From: Pirellula sp.
Lineage (GTDB): Bacteria > Planctomycetota > Planctomycetia > Pirellulales > Pirellulaceae
NCBI GenBank assembly: GCA_021300155.1
Contig: JAJTID010000051.1
Location: 62,001-126,000 of the forward strand
Direction of reading: 5' to 3'
Length of the DNA: 64,000 nucleotides
In this document: one piece after another, positions 4,197 to 56,234 of the stretch
Layout of the letters: the number at the start of each line of letters is the position of its first letter
Numbering within the stretch: the stretch's first letter is position 1
Made by a program: the position numbers and the translations under genes
Notes under the pieces: model-generated
Told to the model about the DNA's origin: nothing
Database searches by the model: none
Seen by the model: the letters and a program-made list of their open reading frames with translations, nothing else

Positions 4197-5564
4197 ATGT
4201 CAAACGAAACAGAAAACTCTAGTTCCGAGTTTGAGCGCGAACGCGTTCCGGAAAACGCACTTAAGGGCCCCGCTGCGTTTTGGGGAATGTACGCAGGTGA
4301 GCATACGGCGGGAACCGAGTTCATGATTGGTCCGCAGTTTGTGGCATGGGGTGCTACCGCCAACAGTCTTATCTTCGGACTATTGCTTGGAAATTTGCTG
4401 GCTGTGTTGACTTGGCGTTTTTTGACAGCCACGATCGCAACGCAGCAACGATTGACGCTCTATTACAAGATGGAGAAGGTCGCCGGCAAACATCTTGTCA
4501 AGATTTACAACTTGGCCAACGGAATCTTGTTTTGTTTTTTGGCAGGCTCCATGATTACCGTTTCTGCGACGGCGGTGGGCCCGTTCTTTCCCGCGATGAA
4601 GATGCCGACCTTCGACTCGACCATGCCTACTGGGCTGGGATGGATCTTCGCTTGCATCTGCATTGGAATGGCGATGACCATTGTCGCTATGAAGGGATAC
4701 AGTGTGGTGGCCAAGGTTGGGAACTATGCCGCCCCCTGGATGTTGTTGATTTTTGTGGCTTGTGCTTTCGTAACACTTGGACGATTGGAGACGTTTGACC
4801 TTTGGGAATTGCTAACCCCTCCAGCCGGAACAACGGAGAAGATCAGCTTTTGGGGGATCGTGTTCTTCTCGTGGTTCTGCAATGCCGCGATGCATTTAGG
4901 AATGGCCGACCTTTCGGTGCTTCGTTTCGCCAAATCGCCGAATGCGGGGTTCGCTTCGGCCGCCGGGATGTTTCTCGGTCACTACATCGCGTGGATCTGC
5001 GCGGCGCTGTTGCTAGTTTATTGGGTGAGGAACCATGGAGTAGATCCTAGCAGAGGAAAAGATCCAGGCACAATGGTCAATGATGCGGTGGGCTGGGCTG
5101 GATTGATCTGCATCATTATTGCAGGCTGGACGACCGCCAACCCTACGATCTATCGCGCGGGCTTGGCCTTTCAAGGTATCATGCCGACCATGCCTCGCAA
5201 TGTAAGCACTCTCATCGCGGGGATTGTATGCACGGCCGCTGGCATCTTCCCTGCCTTCGCGATGAATCTCCTTAGTTTCGTGGGAATCTATGGGACGATC
5301 TTAGCTCCGATTGGTGCCATCATCATTGTCGATCACTTCCTCGCGAAAGCCGTTGGTATTCCCACCGATCCCGCGGAAAAAACTGGAACTACATTCAATT
5401 TTGTCGTTCTTCTGGCCTGGTTGATTCCAGTTGGAATTGCAATCTACCTTTATCGATATCAAGACGTCTTCGCATCCTATTTGCCTCTACCAACGGCGAT
5501 CGCTTGCGGACTTCTCTACATCCTTTTATCTAAAACGATCGGTCCCAAGCTGAAGCTTTCTTAA
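4197..5564 (+). CDS. NCS1-type (cytosine/purine permease-like) transporter
   Basis: The protein has 455 aa and about twelve hydrophobic membrane segments. The N-terminal block (PENALKGPAAFWGMYAGEH) and the GIYGTILAPIGAIIIVDHF block late in the protein resemble nucleobase:cation symporter-1 carriers, cytoplasmic-membrane symporters usually for cytosine, hydantoin, thiamine or allantoin. Placement directly after rhaA suggests that this member carries a deoxysugar or its product instead; that is inference. A 56-residue membrane protein follows 35 nt downstream. No nucleobase catabolic gene is nearby. Confidence 0.75.
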   Translation: MSNETENSSSEFERERVPENALKGPAAFWGMYAGEHTAGTEFMIGPQFVAWGATANSLIFGLLLGNLLAVLTWRFLTATIATQQRLTLYYKMEKVAGKHLVKIYNLANGILFCFLAGSMITVSATAVGPFFPAMKMPTFDSTMPTGLGWIFACICIGMAMTIVAMKGYSVVAKVGNYAAPWMLLIFVACAFVTLGRLETFDLWELLTPPAGTTEKISFWGIVFFSWFCNAAMHLGMADLSVLRFAKSPNAGFASAAGMFLGHYIAWICAALLLVYWVRNHGVDPSRGKDPGTMVNDAVGWAGLICIIIAGWTTANPTIYRAGLAFQGIMPTMPRNVSTLIAGIVCTAAGIFPAFAMNLLSFVGIYGTILAPIGAIIIVDHFLAKAVGIPTDPAEKTGTTFNFVVLLAWLIPVGIAIYLYRYQDVFASYLPLPTAIACGLLYILLSKTIGPKLKLS

Positions 5565-50502: not shown

Positions 50503-51075
50503 TTAGCGTTGGTTGGCTGGAATAAAGTCATCGATCGTCAACAACGTTACCAACGGAATACCGGCGGCATCGAAATTGGCTCTTCCACCCTCGAGCCTAT
50601 CGATGACTCCAACAGCGCCGATGACTTCGAGTCCATAATCTTTGGCCGCGGCAGCGGCTTTCAGTGCACTCCCACCGCTGGTGATAACATCTTCGACGAT
50701 GACGACCTTCATGCCAGGGGTGACTGGTCCCTCGACGAGTTTGCCAGTACCGTGTTGCTTGGCTTCTTTGCGAACCATGAATCCGAGCAATGACAAGTCT
50801 CGCATCCCAGCATGAACAACCACAGATGCAGTGATCGGGTCCGCACCGATCGCAAGTCCACCGACCGCGTCAGGCATGACCCCAAATACATTCGACGCGA
50901 TCACATCCAGCATTCCGGCTGCGATTTGGTTTGCGCCTTGTGGATGCAATGTCACCATGCGACAGTCAAGATAAAAGGAAGCCTGCTTTCCACTAGCGAG
51001 GGTAAACTGCCCGAATTTGAGCGCATGCTCTCGAATGATAGAGATCAATGTATCTTTTTGATAAGTAACGGCCAT
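50503..51075 (-). CDS. pyrE: Orotate phosphoribosyltransferase
   Basis: The protein has 190 aa. It makes orotidine 5'-phosphate from orotate and PRPP in pyrimidine synthesis. The PRPP-binding motif is VVIVEDVITSGGSALKAA, the N-terminal block is FTLASGKQASFYLDCR, and VGGLAIGADPITASV supports the family. It precedes mutM with no gap. pyrF is not in the window. Confidence 0.95.
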   Translation of the reverse strand: MAVTYQKDTLISIIREHALKFGQFTLASGKQASFYLDCRMVTLHPQGANQIAAGMLDVIASNVFGVMPDAVGGLAIGADPITASVVVHAGMRDLSLLGFMVRKEAKQHGTGKLVEGPVTPGMKVVIVEDVITSGGSALKAAAAAKDYGLEVIGAVGVIDRLEGGRANFDAAGIPLVTLLTIDDFIPANQR

Positions 51076-51172
51076 TGTGGAAGGTCATGGTTGTTAGCGA
51101 GACGGATCGGTATACGACGCAGAGGTTCGGATTGTCCCGAAATTTCCGCTCTTTGCCAAGAACTAATTGATT

Positions 51173-51688
51173 TCAAACTGTCTCCTCATCGGTGTCTTCG
51201 AGTTTGTAACCGGGCTCGTCTTTGCCAAGCATTTGCTCAGGATTTAAAACGATTTCCCGCTCGTGCTCTTTGAGTTGTGGACGAGAACTCAACTGGATCA
51301 AATCGTCGGAGGTATACGTATTGGGAAGCGGCATTTCTCGATGAATCAGTTGGTATAGGATACGACTGGTCACTCGATCGAATGTCATTTCTGCAATCGT
51401 TGCGATGCAGGGTTCGCGATCCATCAGCAATCCACGTACCTCAACTTGATCTCCGACCCAAAAACCTTCGTCGGCAACCTTGAGCCATAGCGTTGGTTTG
51501 ACTCGCAAAACGTCGACGCCATATTGCAATCGATAGTAGACTCCATCGTAACTATGACGGCGAAAGACGCGCGTGCTTGGTATCCAACCTTGAACGATCG
51601 ATAGATCGTCCGGATGAATCCAATCCGTTCCCTCTTCGGGCCAGAACAAGTAAACGCCGCAATCTGGTAATTCTGGCCAGTTGATCAT
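51173..51688 (-). CDS. Hypothetical protein, 171 aa
   Basis: The likely start is the ATG at 51688 (MINWPELPDCGVYLFWPEEG), since upstream in-frame sequence to 51790 has no credible start site. The sequence is soluble and aromatic-rich, with WPEEGTDWIHPDDLSIV and VLRVKPTLWLKVADEGFWVGDQVEV standing out. No domain is recognised. The gene sits 97 nt upstream of pyrE on the same strand. It reads as a conserved planctomycete protein of unknown function, but that is impression, not a search result. Confidence 0.7.
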   Translation of the reverse strand: MINWPELPDCGVYLFWPEEGTDWIHPDDLSIVQGWIPSTRVFRRHSYDGVYYRLQYGVDVLRVKPTLWLKVADEGFWVGDQVEVRGLLMDREPCIATIAEMTFDRVTSRILYQLIHREMPLPNTYTSDDLIQLSSRPQLKEHEREIVLNPEQMLGKDEPGYKLEDTDEETV

Positions 51689-51851
51689 GGATGCACTCGT
51701 GATCCTACTCCTCGCTACAAACCGAACTCTCCACGCATACCGAATATCGTAACAAGAATCTGACGAATTTTCCGACGAGTCTGCCAGCACAGTCCAGTTC
51801 CTCGTGCAATCTTAAGCATCTTCGTCGGCTCAAGTTAGGATTCTGTTGGTA

Positions 51852-52871
51852 ATGAATTGCCCTAAACCCCACTTCCTATTGTTCTGTGATGGCAACTATC
51901 CATCCAATGAGCAATCGACTGCAGCAGCAGTCGGGGGCAAGAGTGCCATTGCATTGAATAGTCGTTGGCGATTCGTGCTCGAAGATATTCACTCCGGAAC
52001 AAAATTCGAAGCACAGGATCGTGAAGTCGGAGCAGCGCCCGATCGTACTGCACTCGTCGCGGTACTGCGAGGATTGGAAGCCCTCGAGCAGCCCAGTCGC
52101 GTTACGTTGGTCACCACGAGCCGCTATGTTTTCCGGGGTTTGCAATACGGATTGACCGAATGGCGAGAAAACGATTACTCGTGGGAACACTTCGGATCGG
52201 TCCAACCCATTCGAAATGCGGACTTATGGAAAAGGATCGACCGAACCCTCGCTTTCCATCAAGTGCAATGTCGGCTAATGTCCAACGACGAGGACGAAAA
52301 GCCAACGACCGCTATCGATTTAGTTCCAACGTCGCTGGATCAAGCGGAACCAATAACCGCTGAATCGAAGCTCGTCGAATCGCAATTGCAACCTGTTTGC
52401 GTGGTCTCGCGTCCAAATGCCGTCAGTATTCCCTCGACGAAAAGCACGAAACATCGAATCGATAGTGGATCGACTAACAATGGCGTCGCTCACGCATCAG
52501 CGCCAGCTAGTCGAACCCCGACCGCCATTTTCAAAGACACTTGCAGTTCGATGCACGTCGCCAGCGTCGTCGCGAGTCTTCCCCCTCATCTTGGCGACCA
52601 TAGCAAAACTTGTCGCTTACCAAGGACTACACAACCAGATTCAAAATGGAATTTGCCCAAGGTTCATGGATTTTCCTCAGATTCGTCAGAATCCGCTCCT
52701 AATACAAAAAACGCAGGATGGCGGATCTTTGGGCCAATTCGTTGGACAATTAGCCTCGCAAAGTCCGGCATTTGCTGGGCTTGGAATGTGCTCTTAAGAA
52801 TGGACGAGTGGATCGAATCCTACCTTCGCTGCTTTTTCCTTATGGATCCCACGAATCGCCGCCGTCGCTAG
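51852..52871 (+). CDS. RNase H-fold protein with altered catalytic residues
   Basis: The protein has 339 aa from the ATG at 51852; a TTG two codons upstream is possible. The N-terminal ~150 residues match an RNase HI fold: FCDGNY (Asp13), then DRTALVAVLRGLEAL where the catalytic Glu is Ala67, and TTSRYVFRGLQYGLTEW where the Asp of TDSxYV is Thr89. At least two of the four catalytic acids are therefore lost. A low-complexity region and a hydrophobic, basic C-terminus (GICWAWNVLL, ending RRRR) follow. It could bind RNA/DNA hybrids without cutting. glgB starts 65 nt downstream. Confidence 0.8.
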   Translation: MNCPKPHFLLFCDGNYPSNEQSTAAAVGGKSAIALNSRWRFVLEDIHSGTKFEAQDREVGAAPDRTALVAVLRGLEALEQPSRVTLVTTSRYVFRGLQYGLTEWRENDYSWEHFGSVQPIRNADLWKRIDRTLAFHQVQCRLMSNDEDEKPTTAIDLVPTSLDQAEPITAESKLVESQLQPVCVVSRPNAVSIPSTKSTKHRIDSGSTNNGVAHASAPASRTPTAIFKDTCSSMHVASVVASLPPHLGDHSKTCRLPRTTQPDSKWNLPKVHGFSSDSSESAPNTKNAGWRIFGPIRWTISLAKSGICWAWNVLLRMDEWIESYLRCFFLMDPTNRRRR

Positions 52872-52936
52872 TTCTTTTACCGACCTTTTACATACTCCAC
52901 ATTTAACACTCTTTCGATATAACATTCGGAGACACC

Positions 52937-55144
52937 GTGCAGACCCTACTACCTTTGAATTCCCTTTCAGGCATCATCGATGGAAATTTGTCGGACCCCC
53001 GAGGCTTTCTCGGTCCCCACAAAGTCCGGATGGAAGGGAAGGACGCAATCGCAGTTCGAGGTTACTTTCCTAGTTCGGACCAAGCGTGGATCGTGGACAA
53101 TGTGCATTCGGCAGTCCGCCCCATGCGAAAGATCCACCCTTCCGGAATTTACGAAGGCTTAATGCCACACGAAGACACTGATTCATCGAGCTACCGCATT
53201 CGACTCGCTAATGGCAATGGGAACACAATTGAAATGACAGATCCATACGCAGTCCCATTCCATTTAACGGACTTTGATCGCTATCTCTTCGGCAGCGGTC
53301 AACACTGGAAGATCTACGAAAAGCTCGGTGCGCACATTCGCGAAGTAAACGGCCAGGTTGGCGTAAACTTCGCTGTTTGGGCACCCAATGCACAAAGCGT
53401 CCAAGTCGTCGGCGACTTTAATCATTGGGACGGCCGATCGCATGCGATGCAAAAGCAAATCCCGAGCGGCATCTGGGAACTATTTGTGCCGAACATCGGT
53501 GAAGGCCAAAAGTACAAACTGCGAGTTCGACTCGCGAGCGGAGAAGTGATCGACAAGACGGACCCGTACGGCGTCGCGGCAGAGCTGCCACCGAGAACCG
53601 CGTCGATCGTCTGCTCATTGGATAAACATCAATGGAACGACGGCGAATGGATGAATCGCCGCCGCGAAGAAAACCAACTTGACAAACCGATGACGGTTTA
53701 TGAAGTCCATTTGGGCTCGTGGCGCAAGTGCGAGCATGGCGTCCACGGCTGGATGAATTACCGTGAAATTGCGCATCAATTGGTGCAATACTGTCAGGAG
53801 ATGAACTTCACACACGTCGAACTGATGCCGATCTCCGAGCATCCGTTCACAGGCTCGTGGGGTTATCAGACGGTTGGCTACTTTGCTGCAACCAGCCGAT
53901 ACGGAACTCCAGAAGATTTCATGTACTTTGTCGATCATTGCCATCGACATGGTATCGGGGTGATCATCGATTGGGTTCCTGCACACTTCCCGAAAGATGC
54001 ACACGGACTGCGTCAATTCGATGGATCGGCGTTGTATGAGCACTCCGATCCTCGTCAAGGTGAGCACCCAGACTGGGGCACAATGATCTTCAATTTTGGC
54101 CGCAACGAAGTCAAGAACTTCCTGATTGCCAACGCATTGTTCTGGCTCGACAAATACCACATCGATGGATTGCGAGTGGATGCTGTCGCTTCGATGTTGT
54201 ATCTCGACTACTCGCGTAAACAAGGGGAATGGGTTCCGAATCAATACGGCGGACGTGAGAATATCGATGCCATTCATTTGCTCCGAGAATTCAATATCCA
54301 ATCACACTCGCAATATCCTGGAGTGTTGACGATTGCTGAGGAATCGACTGCTTGGCCTGGCGTGAGCCGCCCCACCGAAACGGGCGGGCTAGGATTCTCG
54401 CTCAAGTGGAACATGGGTTGGATGAACGACACGCTGCGTTACATGCGCGAAGATCCAATCCATCGTAAATATCACCACAATGAGCTGACATTCAGCTTGA
54501 TCTATGCGTTCACCGAGAACTTCAATTTGCCTCTGTCGCACGACGAAGTTGTTCACGGCAAGGGAGCGCTCATTGCACAGATGTCAGGCGATCTCTGGCA
54601 GAAGTTCGCTAACCTGCGATTGCTCTACAGCTATATGTGGACTCATCCAGGCAAGAAGCTTTTGTTCATGGGCAGCGAGATCGCGCAATGGCACGAATGG
54701 AACTATGACAGCACCATCCAATGGGATCTACTGCAATGGGATACGCATCGAGGCATGCAACGATTGGTTGGTGATCTCAATCAACTCGTTCGACGCGAAC
54801 CAGCTCTGCATGAACTTGACTTCAGTGGAGAGGGCTTCGAGTGGGTAGACTGCATGAATGGTGACGATAGCGTTCTAGGGTATGTTCGCAAGGCAAAGGA
54901 TCCAAACGATTTTGTTTTGATCGCCTGCAACTTTACACCTGTAGTTCGTACATATCGAATGGGTGTTCCCAAGGCTGGATATTACCAAGAAATATTCAAC
55001 AGCGATTCGGCGCATTATGCGGGAACGAATGTCGGCAACTATCCTGGAATCACGGCAGATGCCCAGTTTCCACACCATGGTCGCCCCGCTTCGATCGAAC
55101 TAACGATTCCTCCGTTGGGACTCGTTGTGTTCAAACCGCAATAA
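52937..55144 (+). CDS. glgB: 1,4-alpha-glucan branching enzyme
   Basis: The protein has 735 aa with a GTG start. It makes alpha-1,6 branches in glycogen. A carbohydrate-binding N1 domain (AWIVDNVHSAVRPM) and CBM48 (GQVGVNFAVWAPNAQSVQVVGDFN) precede the GH13 catalytic barrel: FTHVELMPISEHPFTGSWGYQ, GLRVDAVASMLYLDYSR (nucleophile Asp), IAEESTAWP (acid Glu) and LPLSHDEVVHGKG. The full domain set marks the long E. coli type. No glgA/C/P is adjacent. The inverted-repeat cluster begins 22 nt after its stop. Confidence 0.96.
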   Translation: MQTLLPLNSLSGIIDGNLSDPRGFLGPHKVRMEGKDAIAVRGYFPSSDQAWIVDNVHSAVRPMRKIHPSGIYEGLMPHEDTDSSSYRIRLANGNGNTIEMTDPYAVPFHLTDFDRYLFGSGQHWKIYEKLGAHIREVNGQVGVNFAVWAPNAQSVQVVGDFNHWDGRSHAMQKQIPSGIWELFVPNIGEGQKYKLRVRLASGEVIDKTDPYGVAAELPPRTASIVCSLDKHQWNDGEWMNRRREENQLDKPMTVYEVHLGSWRKCEHGVHGWMNYREIAHQLVQYCQEMNFTHVELMPISEHPFTGSWGYQTVGYFAATSRYGTPEDFMYFVDHCHRHGIGVIIDWVPAHFPKDAHGLRQFDGSALYEHSDPRQGEHPDWGTMIFNFGRNEVKNFLIANALFWLDKYHIDGLRVDAVASMLYLDYSRKQGEWVPNQYGGRENIDAIHLLREFNIQSHSQYPGVLTIAEESTAWPGVSRPTETGGLGFSLKWNMGWMNDTLRYMREDPIHRKYHHNELTFSLIYAFTENFNLPLSHDEVVHGKGALIAQMSGDLWQKFANLRLLYSYMWTHPGKKLLFMGSEIAQWHEWNYDSTIQWDLLQWDTHRGMQRLVGDLNQLVRREPALHELDFSGEGFEWVDCMNGDDSVLGYVRKAKDPNDFVLIACNFTPVVRTYRMGVPKAGYYQEIFNSDSAHYAGTNVGNYPGITADAQFPHHGRPASIELTIPPLGLVVFKPQ

Positions 55145-55165
55145 GGCGCGAGATAAGACGGTAAC

Positions 55166-55355
55166 ATCCCAACCCGCTGCGTGAGCGCTTGCTAATTTGA
55201 TTTGCCGCAGGCAAAGGAAACATCACAACCTGAAGCGTGAGCGAGGGACGTACAATGCCACAGCATCCCTCGCTTACGCGTCGGGTTGGGATAAAGCAAC
55301 ACGCCGGTGAGCGGGGGACGGACGGTCTGCCCCTCGCTCACGCTTCGGGTTGGGG
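55166..55355. repeat. Cluster of inverted repeats with core CCCAACCCGAAGCGTGAGCG
   Basis: Two plus copies (55166-55187 imperfect; 55221-55248) and two minus copies (55266-55292; 55330-55355) of about 26 bp, plus a partial copy near 55306-55320. Copies 2 and 3 can pair into a ~27-bp stem with a 17-nt loop. The unit resembles dispersed palindromic repeats common in planctomycete genomes. It lies between glgB and the WecG gene. Confidence 0.85.
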
Positions 55356-55427
55356 TAAATTCTTTGCCTAGAATTTTTCAACTGCAGTTCATCTAAGTCG
55401 ATTCCACCTGAGTCGTTGGTTTGTCTT

Positions 55428-56234
55428 ATGATCAATCTCGGAAAAAAGAACCTTCTAGGGATCGGCATTGACGCGGTTGATTACGAGTCTGCGGTGGAGC
55501 GATTCATGCGCGCTGCTCACGACGGAGTGCGATACACAACGACGGCGCTCGCTGTTCACGGTGTGATGACAGGAGCGCTCGACAAGGAGCATCGCTTTCG
55601 ATTGAATGCGCTCGACATGATCGTACCGGATGGAATGCCGGTGCGATGGGGACTCAATCTGATTCACAAGGCTGGGCTTCCCGATCGAGTATATGGCCCA
55701 AACCTCATGCTGAAAATTTGTGAGGCAGCAGCCCAGCAGCAATTGCCGATTTTTCTTTTCGGAACGAGTCAGGAGACACTCGATCTATTGGCGAAGAATT
55801 TGAAAGCAAAGTTTCCATCACTTCAGATCGCTGGTGCAGAGCCGTCGAAATTTCGCACGTTGACCGACGAAGAGACGGAGGATCTCGTAGAAAGGATTCG
55901 TTCCAGCGGTGCCAAGATCACGTTCGCGGGCTTGGGATGTCCGCGTCAAGAGATTTGGGCCTACGAAATGGGGGATCGATTGCGAATGCCACTATTCGCG
56001 GTGGGTGCGGCCTTCCCTTTTCATGCAGGTACACTACCCCAAGCCCCTTCGTGGATGCAGCGTTGGGGGTTAGAATGGTGGTTTCGATTGACGAGCGAGC
56101 CGAAACGCCTTTGGCGAAGGTACTTGTATCTCAATCCTGCCTATTTGTATCTGCTGGGGCTACAGTGGTTGCGCCTCAAGACGTTTGACTCCACCGAAGA
56201 CCCAGCACCCTCCACTCGTATGAACTACGGATAG
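55428..56234 (+). CDS. WecG/TagA/CpsF family glycosyltransferase
   Basis: The protein has 268 aa from the ATG at 55428; an in-frame TTG lies four codons upstream. Family motifs are LDMIVPDGMPVRWGL (acidic catalytic residue), YGPNLMLKICE, AGLGCPRQEIWAYE, FAVGAAFPFHAGTLPQAP and the C-terminal WGLEWWFRLTSEPKRLWRRY. It transfers an N-acetylmannosaminuronic-like sugar in surface polymer synthesis; the donor here is unknown. queA follows by 1 nt, which suggests cotranscription without functional link. Confidence 0.92.
   Translation: MINLGKKNLLGIGIDAVDYESAVERFMRAAHDGVRYTTTALAVHGVMTGALDKEHRFRLNALDMIVPDGMPVRWGLNLIHKAGLPDRVYGPNLMLKICEAAAQQQLPIFLFGTSQETLDLLAKNLKAKFPSLQIAGAEPSKFRTLTDEETEDLVERIRSSGAKITFAGLGCPRQEIWAYEMGDRLRMPLFAVGAAFPFHAGTLPQAPSWMQRWGLEWWFRLTSEPKRLWRRYLYLNPAYLYLLGLQWLRLKTFDSTEDPAPSTRMNYG

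Follow-up and report, generated by a model that had tools for sequence, protein, structure and literature searches.

Bacterial ribonuclease HI (encoded by rnhA; NF001236, PF00075) is the enzyme with which the protein described here is best compared. The two share a fold, a topology and core residues such as W39, W104, W126 and H136, with structural Z scores of up to 17.5. They differ in that the catalytic triad is found in 0 of 78 orthologues of the new protein, the stretch holding H124 and D134 is lost, the handle is recharged, and a tail has been added. According to PMC1950709, the handle of E. coli RNase HI is involved in substrate binding, and Bacillus 'Group A' homologues of RNase HI occur beside functional RNases H, cannot compensate for them in B. 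subtilis, and have an altered handle. As described there, the basic handle is absent from the Group A proteins, whereas the glgB-linked family treated here has a conserved handle of new composition together with its tie to glgB.

Inactive RNase H-like domains resemble the present case in that the fold outlives its metal-binding residues. The connection domain of reverse transcriptase and Prp8 are further examples of such domains. RNase H-like proteins without metal-binding residues are also known among derivatives of CENP-B-type transposases, as PMC3985635 reports. Such domains are parts of nucleic-acid proteins, whereas the present protein stands alone, and its genetic link is with an enzyme of polysaccharide metabolism. 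On the polysaccharide side, the N1 domain of GlgB and CBM48 are presented in PMC6339891 as accessory parts tied to branching and chain length. This is the kind of role proposed below for the glgB-linked protein; unlike it, the two domains belong to unrelated Pfam families and lie in cis on GlgB, and the GlgB encoded next to our gene has a GlgB_N and a CBM_48 domain of its own. Among the matches listed from the open-licence literature, none concerned a glgB-linked or planctomycete inactive RNase HI. Dead relatives of RNase H are known; the association with glgB is moderately surprising.

An RNase HI fold encoded upstream of glgB

The window, by which we mean the whole 64,000-nucleotide stretch of Pirellula sp. 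DNA that was analyzed, contains the gene immediately before glgB (Table 1). Its product matches Pfam RNase_H (PF00075) with 34.8 bits (cut-off 25.8) over residues 9-140 and can be counted in that family, but it scores 55.9 bits against the NCBIfam ribonuclease HI equivalog NF001236, whose cut-off is 160, and falls outside it. In phmmer comparisons with solved RNases HI the best E-value was 4.2e-11, and window residues 64-142 were paired with residues 45-120 of E. coli RNase HI.

In an AlphaFold model of the window protein, for which 62 orthologues were used, most of the core exceeds a pLDDT of 90, with lower values around residues 11-40, and strands and helices follow one another as in RNase H as far as strand 5. 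Its top solved match is Chlorobium tepidum RNase H1 (3h08_B; Z 17.5, 2.1 Å, 124 residues), and Z reaches 16.8 against E. coli RNase HI, where the alignments run no further than chain residues 124-127 and stop short of D134. The core and its hairpin (94-97/100-103) recur in a second model, made for the distant orthologue L039 (Z 17.0); this model is without a confident final helix, and a low-confidence helix at 148-161 lies partly inside some of the alignments. The PDB matches listed for both models are RNase H entries only, and they bear on the core and not on the tail. The first-pass annotation had called an RNase H fold from the sequence alone, and the Pfam match above cut-off and the model's Z of 17.5 to RNase HI bear it out.

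Table 1. Coordinates of the RNase HI-derived gene, its parts and the adjacent glgB in the window.
Feature	Coordinates	Strand	Details
Pseudo-RNase HI gene	51852..52871	+	339 aa; ATG start, stop codon included
RNase H-like core, residues 1-146	51852..52289	+	Predicted model and structure comparison
Core elements, first half			b1 7-13, b2 37-45, b3 51-58, aA 63-76, b4 83-88
Core elements, second half			aB 91-106, hairpin 110-113/116-119, aD 123-133, b5 137-142; without final helix
Asp13, equivalent to catalytic D10, retained	51888..51890	+	Alignment
Ala67 at catalytic E48 position	52050..52052	+	phmmer and alignment
Thr89 at catalytic D70 position	52116..52118	+	phmmer and alignment
Remodelled handle, residues 104-119 (W104 R105 ... 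W111 E112 x F114 G115)	52161..52208	+	Predicted beta-hairpin in two models
Linker, residues 147-294	52290..52733	+	Predicted disordered (low pLDDT), fast-evolving
C-terminal helix, residues 296-328, with Trp, then basic end	52737..52835	+	Block-mean pLDDT 54-87
glgB, 1,4-alpha-glucan branching enzyme	52937..55144	+	65 nt downstream; Pfam GlgB_N, CBM_48, Alpha-amylase, Alpha-amylase_C

Loss of the catalytic residues

The active site was followed in an alignment of 78 orthologues with 21 canonical RNases HI, the latter comprising the rnhA product of the window genome and 20 proteins from elsewhere in the class. The sets of 62 and 78 sequences leave out a truncated copy (L030) and the duplicates L034, L035, L036, L048, L050, L061, L068 and L069. 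All of D10, E48, D70, H124 and D134 are kept in 21/21 canonical enzymes, as are the NPGPGG loop and the TTNN motif, both of which are lost in the glgB-linked family. The alignment places Ala67 and Thr89 of the window protein on E48 and D70, confirming the two substitutions first proposed for it. The stretch corresponding to H124 and D134 is absent, and the domain stops after strand 5.

No orthologue has the D-E-D triad, even when D and E are treated alike (0/78). The D10 column holds D in 20, E in 38 and another residue in 20 of the 78, the E48 column E in 30 and A in 26 (D or E in 32), and the D70 column T in 29, P in 12, S in 11 and D in only 2. His is found at the H124 column in 0/78, and D or E at the D134 column in 16/78, within a poorly alignable tail. 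We also considered, and rejected, a shifted yet intact active site: an acid stands within two columns of D70 in just 3 orthologues and is missing there in the remaining 75, as expected of acids that were lost and not displaced. Retention of the acids by orthologues, named at the outset as a refutation, is seen at single positions in some members (Glu at E48 in 30/78) and never for the whole triad, which is gone in 78/78. Judged by its residues, the glgB-linked protein should not be an RNase H. A separate canonical rnhA (152 bits), whose existence the first-pass annotation had left to be checked, is present in the window genome.

A remodelled handle and an added tail

The columns that are special to the dead family fall largely in the handle. 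W111 is present in 78/78 orthologues at a site occupied by R in 20/21 canonical enzymes, E or D at position 112 in 77/78 (R or K in 18/21 canonical), F or Y at 114 in 76/78, G115 likewise in 76/78, and R105 in 70/78 (K in 21/21 canonical). Outside the handle, D56 is found in 72/78 orthologues where canonical enzymes have G in 21/21, and T85 in 72/78. The mean net charge of the handle (residues 98-122) is +0.05 in the 78 dead proteins vs +5.48 in the 21 canonical ones, and that of the core (residues 38-144) is -0.76 vs +5.29; the basic substrate-binding handle of RNase HI is missing from the family. Since the composition of the handle has changed and its invariant positions are kept, the surface that once gripped nucleic acid has been rebuilt, not dropped. 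The aromatic residues of the handle may alternatively do no more than pack the core.

Beyond the core, the model gives low confidence from about residue 150 to 294, followed by a predicted helix at 296-328 and a basic end, in keeping with the low-complexity tail and hydrophobic, basic terminus described originally. Orthologue tails span 33 to 243 residues and are net positive in 61/78. The last 45 tail residues are enriched in Trp (4.5% vs 0.5% earlier in the tail) and Arg (14.0% vs 8.0%), and a Trp lies within the last 45 residues of 63/78 tails. No universal tail motif emerged from the 78 tails; W-[hydrophobic]-x-G occurs in 17 of them, against a mean of 2.3 and a maximum of 9 in shuffled sequences. 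In the model, the C-terminal helix might instead occupy the site of the lost final helix of the fold.

Selection and descent

Comparison with the near relative L033 gives a dN/dS of 0.051 over residues 1-146 and of 0.030 over residues 37-146 (dS 0.40), rising to 0.347 in the linker and 0.206 in residues 295-339. For the same pair of genomes, glgB has a dN/dS of 0.025. Constraint on the dead core matches that on a metabolic enzyme, and purifying selection on it is strong. All 78 orthologue ORFs, of 163-380 aa, are without internal stops. A tree was built from 42 of the 78 dead sequences together with the full canonical set of 21, and in it a single branch with support of 100/100 separates the two groups. 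The original proposal of a protein derived from RNase HI that lost its acids and gained a tail is supported by domain score, structure match, tree and residue counts.

Conserved linkage to glgB

Gene neighborhoods were read in 42 loci of the window's family, comprising the window, one named MAG contig and 40 same-family regions; they span 38 genera and were picked by the length of their contigs before glgB was known to matter. In 41 of the 42 the next gene downstream, in the same orientation, is the one for the branching enzyme, the exception being locus L046 of genome G019. The pair is also present in 16/16 loci from 11 other families of the order, although these were fetched after coordinates had shown the adjacency and were not read blind; they are the gene-bearing members of 20 regions fetched outside the family, the other 4 coming from family f9. 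An earlier fetch had covered 30 loci out of 192 genomes with matches. Over all loci read, the adjacency is conserved in 57 of 58.

Coordinates extend this picture: the two genes are adjacent in 118/122 genomes of the family, a count drawn from 135 gene entries among the matches listed, 13 of which had no glgB entry, and in 34/34 genomes with a glgB entry in the rest of the order, a 35th (G355) having none. Among the four misses in the family, the glgB of G073 follows the gene immediately but is cut, and in G115 the gene stands at a contig start, leaving G019 and G017 (genera g19 and g17) as true exceptions in which the gene lies away from glgB. The median gap between the genes is 72 nt. No other cluster of neighbors occurs in more than 8 of the 42 loci, apart from ORFs that overlap the two genes, as judged by position.

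Several smaller observations concern the same region. Upstream of the window gene lies a divergent gene (51173-51790, minus strand) with a marginal match to DUF6960 (28.6 bits vs a cut-off of 27), whose cluster is found in 4/42 loci. Locus L138 is the G017 region in which the gene is away from glgB, and its ORF at 4274-4840 (minus strand) is presumably related to dCTP deaminase, which it resembles. A fusion to GlgB was entertained for L042 and L060, where long overlapping glgB ORFs begin upstream of the expected start, and was rejected in favor of probable over-called starts, as read from the gap data. No Rfam element reached the gathering score in 51000-56000, and a scan for promoters and terminators returned 0 of each, below the shuffled mean and so an uninformative outcome. 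No GlgB alignment columns tracked the presence of the gene in a comparison of 57 genomes with it and 11 without, and no interface was detected in this way.

Distribution and co-occurrence

Distribution was followed in a sample of 297 genomes of the class. A family-model score of at least 137 bits was reached in 36/36 genomes of the window's family and 35/46 genomes in the rest of the order, and in 0/215 genomes outside the order; absence was judged from a small number of scored candidates in each genome, 10 or 14 in the case of the family model. Among the outsiders the highest score, 123 bits in G203, belongs to a canonical rnhA; genomes with weak matches only were taken to hold canonical rnhA by score, with the sequence checked in 20 cases. 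Elsewhere in the order, the 11 genomes that fell short are 9/9 genomes of family f9 together with G398 and G416. GlgB exceeds its cut-off in 278/297 genomes of the class, and its presence alongside the gene is to that extent expected.

A closer count was made in 199 genomes of the family, 174 of which carry the gene (E < 1e-35, with family-model scores above the canonical range). Of these, 170 have a GlgB over its cut-off. Another three have, right behind the gene, a glgB that is cut by a contig end, and in the last one, G079 (80% complete), about 1.4 kb of contig follow the gene and contain no glgB. GlgB thus accompanies the gene in 173 of 174 genomes, and the gene is in effect present only with GlgB. 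Of the 25 genomes in which the gene is absent, 16 are also without GlgB over cut-off. These include G183 (99% complete and from the window's genus), 9/9 genomes of genus g3 and 2/2 of g6, as well as G034, G065, G128 and G173, which at only 68-86% completeness offer little proof. G183 and the genera g3 and g6 are natural absences of the pair, with G183 and G002 at 99% completeness.

GlgB without the gene occurs in nine genomes of the family (g22, g33, g48, g57 and G084) and in 9/9 genomes of family f9. A search for a divergent copy near glgB gave no HMM match in seven of these nine family genomes (L114-L120, all but G022 and G084) and four f9 genomes (L110-L113); L114 offers just about 0.8 kb before glgB. 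Fisher's test of co-occurrence gives p = 5e-14 overall and 1e-7 at completeness of at least 90%, values uncorrected for kinship that are inflated by it and by the joint loss of neighbors through incomplete assembly or a single deletion. The dependence runs one way: no well-assembled genome of the family was seen with the gene and without GlgB, and the converse occurs.

RNase H repertoire of the order

A canonical rnhB, the other enzyme that the first-pass annotation had suggested looking for, did not turn up. The RNase HII/HIII profile (PF01351) has no match in the window genome (G000, 99.99% complete), where 14/14 control profiles were matched, and it exceeds its cut-off in 1 of 30 relatives. 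RNase HI may be the only RNase H of the order, in keeping with Table 2 of PMC1950709, where the single planctomycete is placed in Group E, which would stand for organisms with RNase HI only. Sub-threshold matches to the start of the RNase HII profile (21-26 positions, in ORFs of 335-419 aa) were observed in 7 of the 30 genomes (G472:C155:7089, G469:C50:9103, G177:C65:33547, G313:C24:7234, G384:C22:2688, G123:C33:11940 and G328:C72:1673), and are perhaps one recurrent protein family or chance.

Possible functions of the glgB-linked protein

The best explanation, to which we would give an even chance, is that a pseudo-RNase HI was recruited to assist in glycogen branching. On this view an RNase HI paralogue would have lost its nuclease activity early in the order Pirellulales and been retained as a non-nuclease accessory, probably made together with GlgB. 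Its globular core would act as a binding scaffold. The handle, which once served nucleic acid and is now a hairpin of neutral, aromatic character, would be the likeliest new contact surface, with either GlgB or an alpha-glucan chain as its partner. The tail, disordered and ending in a Trp/Arg-rich segment, may serve as a tether or docking peptide. Co-expression with GlgB, contact with GlgB or glucan, and an effect on branching would all be expected of such a protein. Counting against it, GlgB works without the gene, as the nine genomes of the family and nine of f9 that have GlgB and not the gene indicate; the gene is not beside glgB in G019 and G017; and Pfam recognized no glucan-binding domain in the window protein. 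A bolder form of the proposal, which we put forward only tentatively, is that the RNase H fold was turned into a carbohydrate-storage protein whose aromatic hairpin binds alpha-glucan or GlgB, and whose Trp/Arg tail end might fasten GlgB, or else the nascent glycogen particle, to the membrane or a partner and thereby determine the place and manner of glycogen branching in most of the order.

It is also conceivable, if unlikely, that the protein has an unrelated role and that its gene merely rides before glgB by inherited gene order. The tie to glycogen is indirect, and the gene does stand apart from glgB in the two exceptional genera, as this reading would allow; yet the other neighbors have been reshuffled across the same loci while this pair was kept, and GlgB accompanies the gene in all but one of the 174 genomes of the family.

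Rather unlikely, too, is a nucleic-acid-binding regulator, in which the dead fold and basic tail would bind RNA or an RNA/DNA hybrid without cutting it and tune glgB expression or act on R-loops. Descent from RNase HI, tails that are mostly net positive and a site directly upstream of glgB, well suited to a cis-acting role, all speak for it. However, the handle has gone from a mean charge of +5.48 to +0.05 and the core from +5.29 to -0.76, the NPGPGG loop and TTNN motif are lost, and the Rfam search of 51000-56000 gave no element at gathering score for such a regulator to act upon, although an undescribed one could exist. The initial suggestion of hybrid or RNA binding is accordingly weakened, as far as residues can tell, by the neutral handle and the lost motifs, though the mildly basic tails (positive in 61/78) leave it some plausibility. 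Nucleic-acid binding by the tail is possible.

A still-active nuclease, with a rearranged active site formed by Asp13 and other acids, is very improbable: an acid is kept at the D10 column in 58/78 orthologues and at E48 in 32/78, but Asp stands at D70 in 2/78 only, the H124/D134 stretch is gone, and the three acids occur together in none. Loss of catalytic residues would suit a decaying pseudogene, an explanation that the core dN/dS of 0.03 and the intact ORFs of 78 orthologues reduce to almost nothing.

Implications

A Pfam RNase_H match beside glgB invites the name 'ribonuclease H' and carries a risk of mis-annotation. The genome has its canonical rnhA elsewhere and showed no RNase HII, so its inventory of RNases H would be distorted if this copy were counted as active. 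The two genes offer a concrete, testable pair in a glycogen pathway on which little planctomycete work was found in the literature. If the proposed recruitment is true, an RNase H scaffold would have left nucleic-acid work for polysaccharide metabolism.
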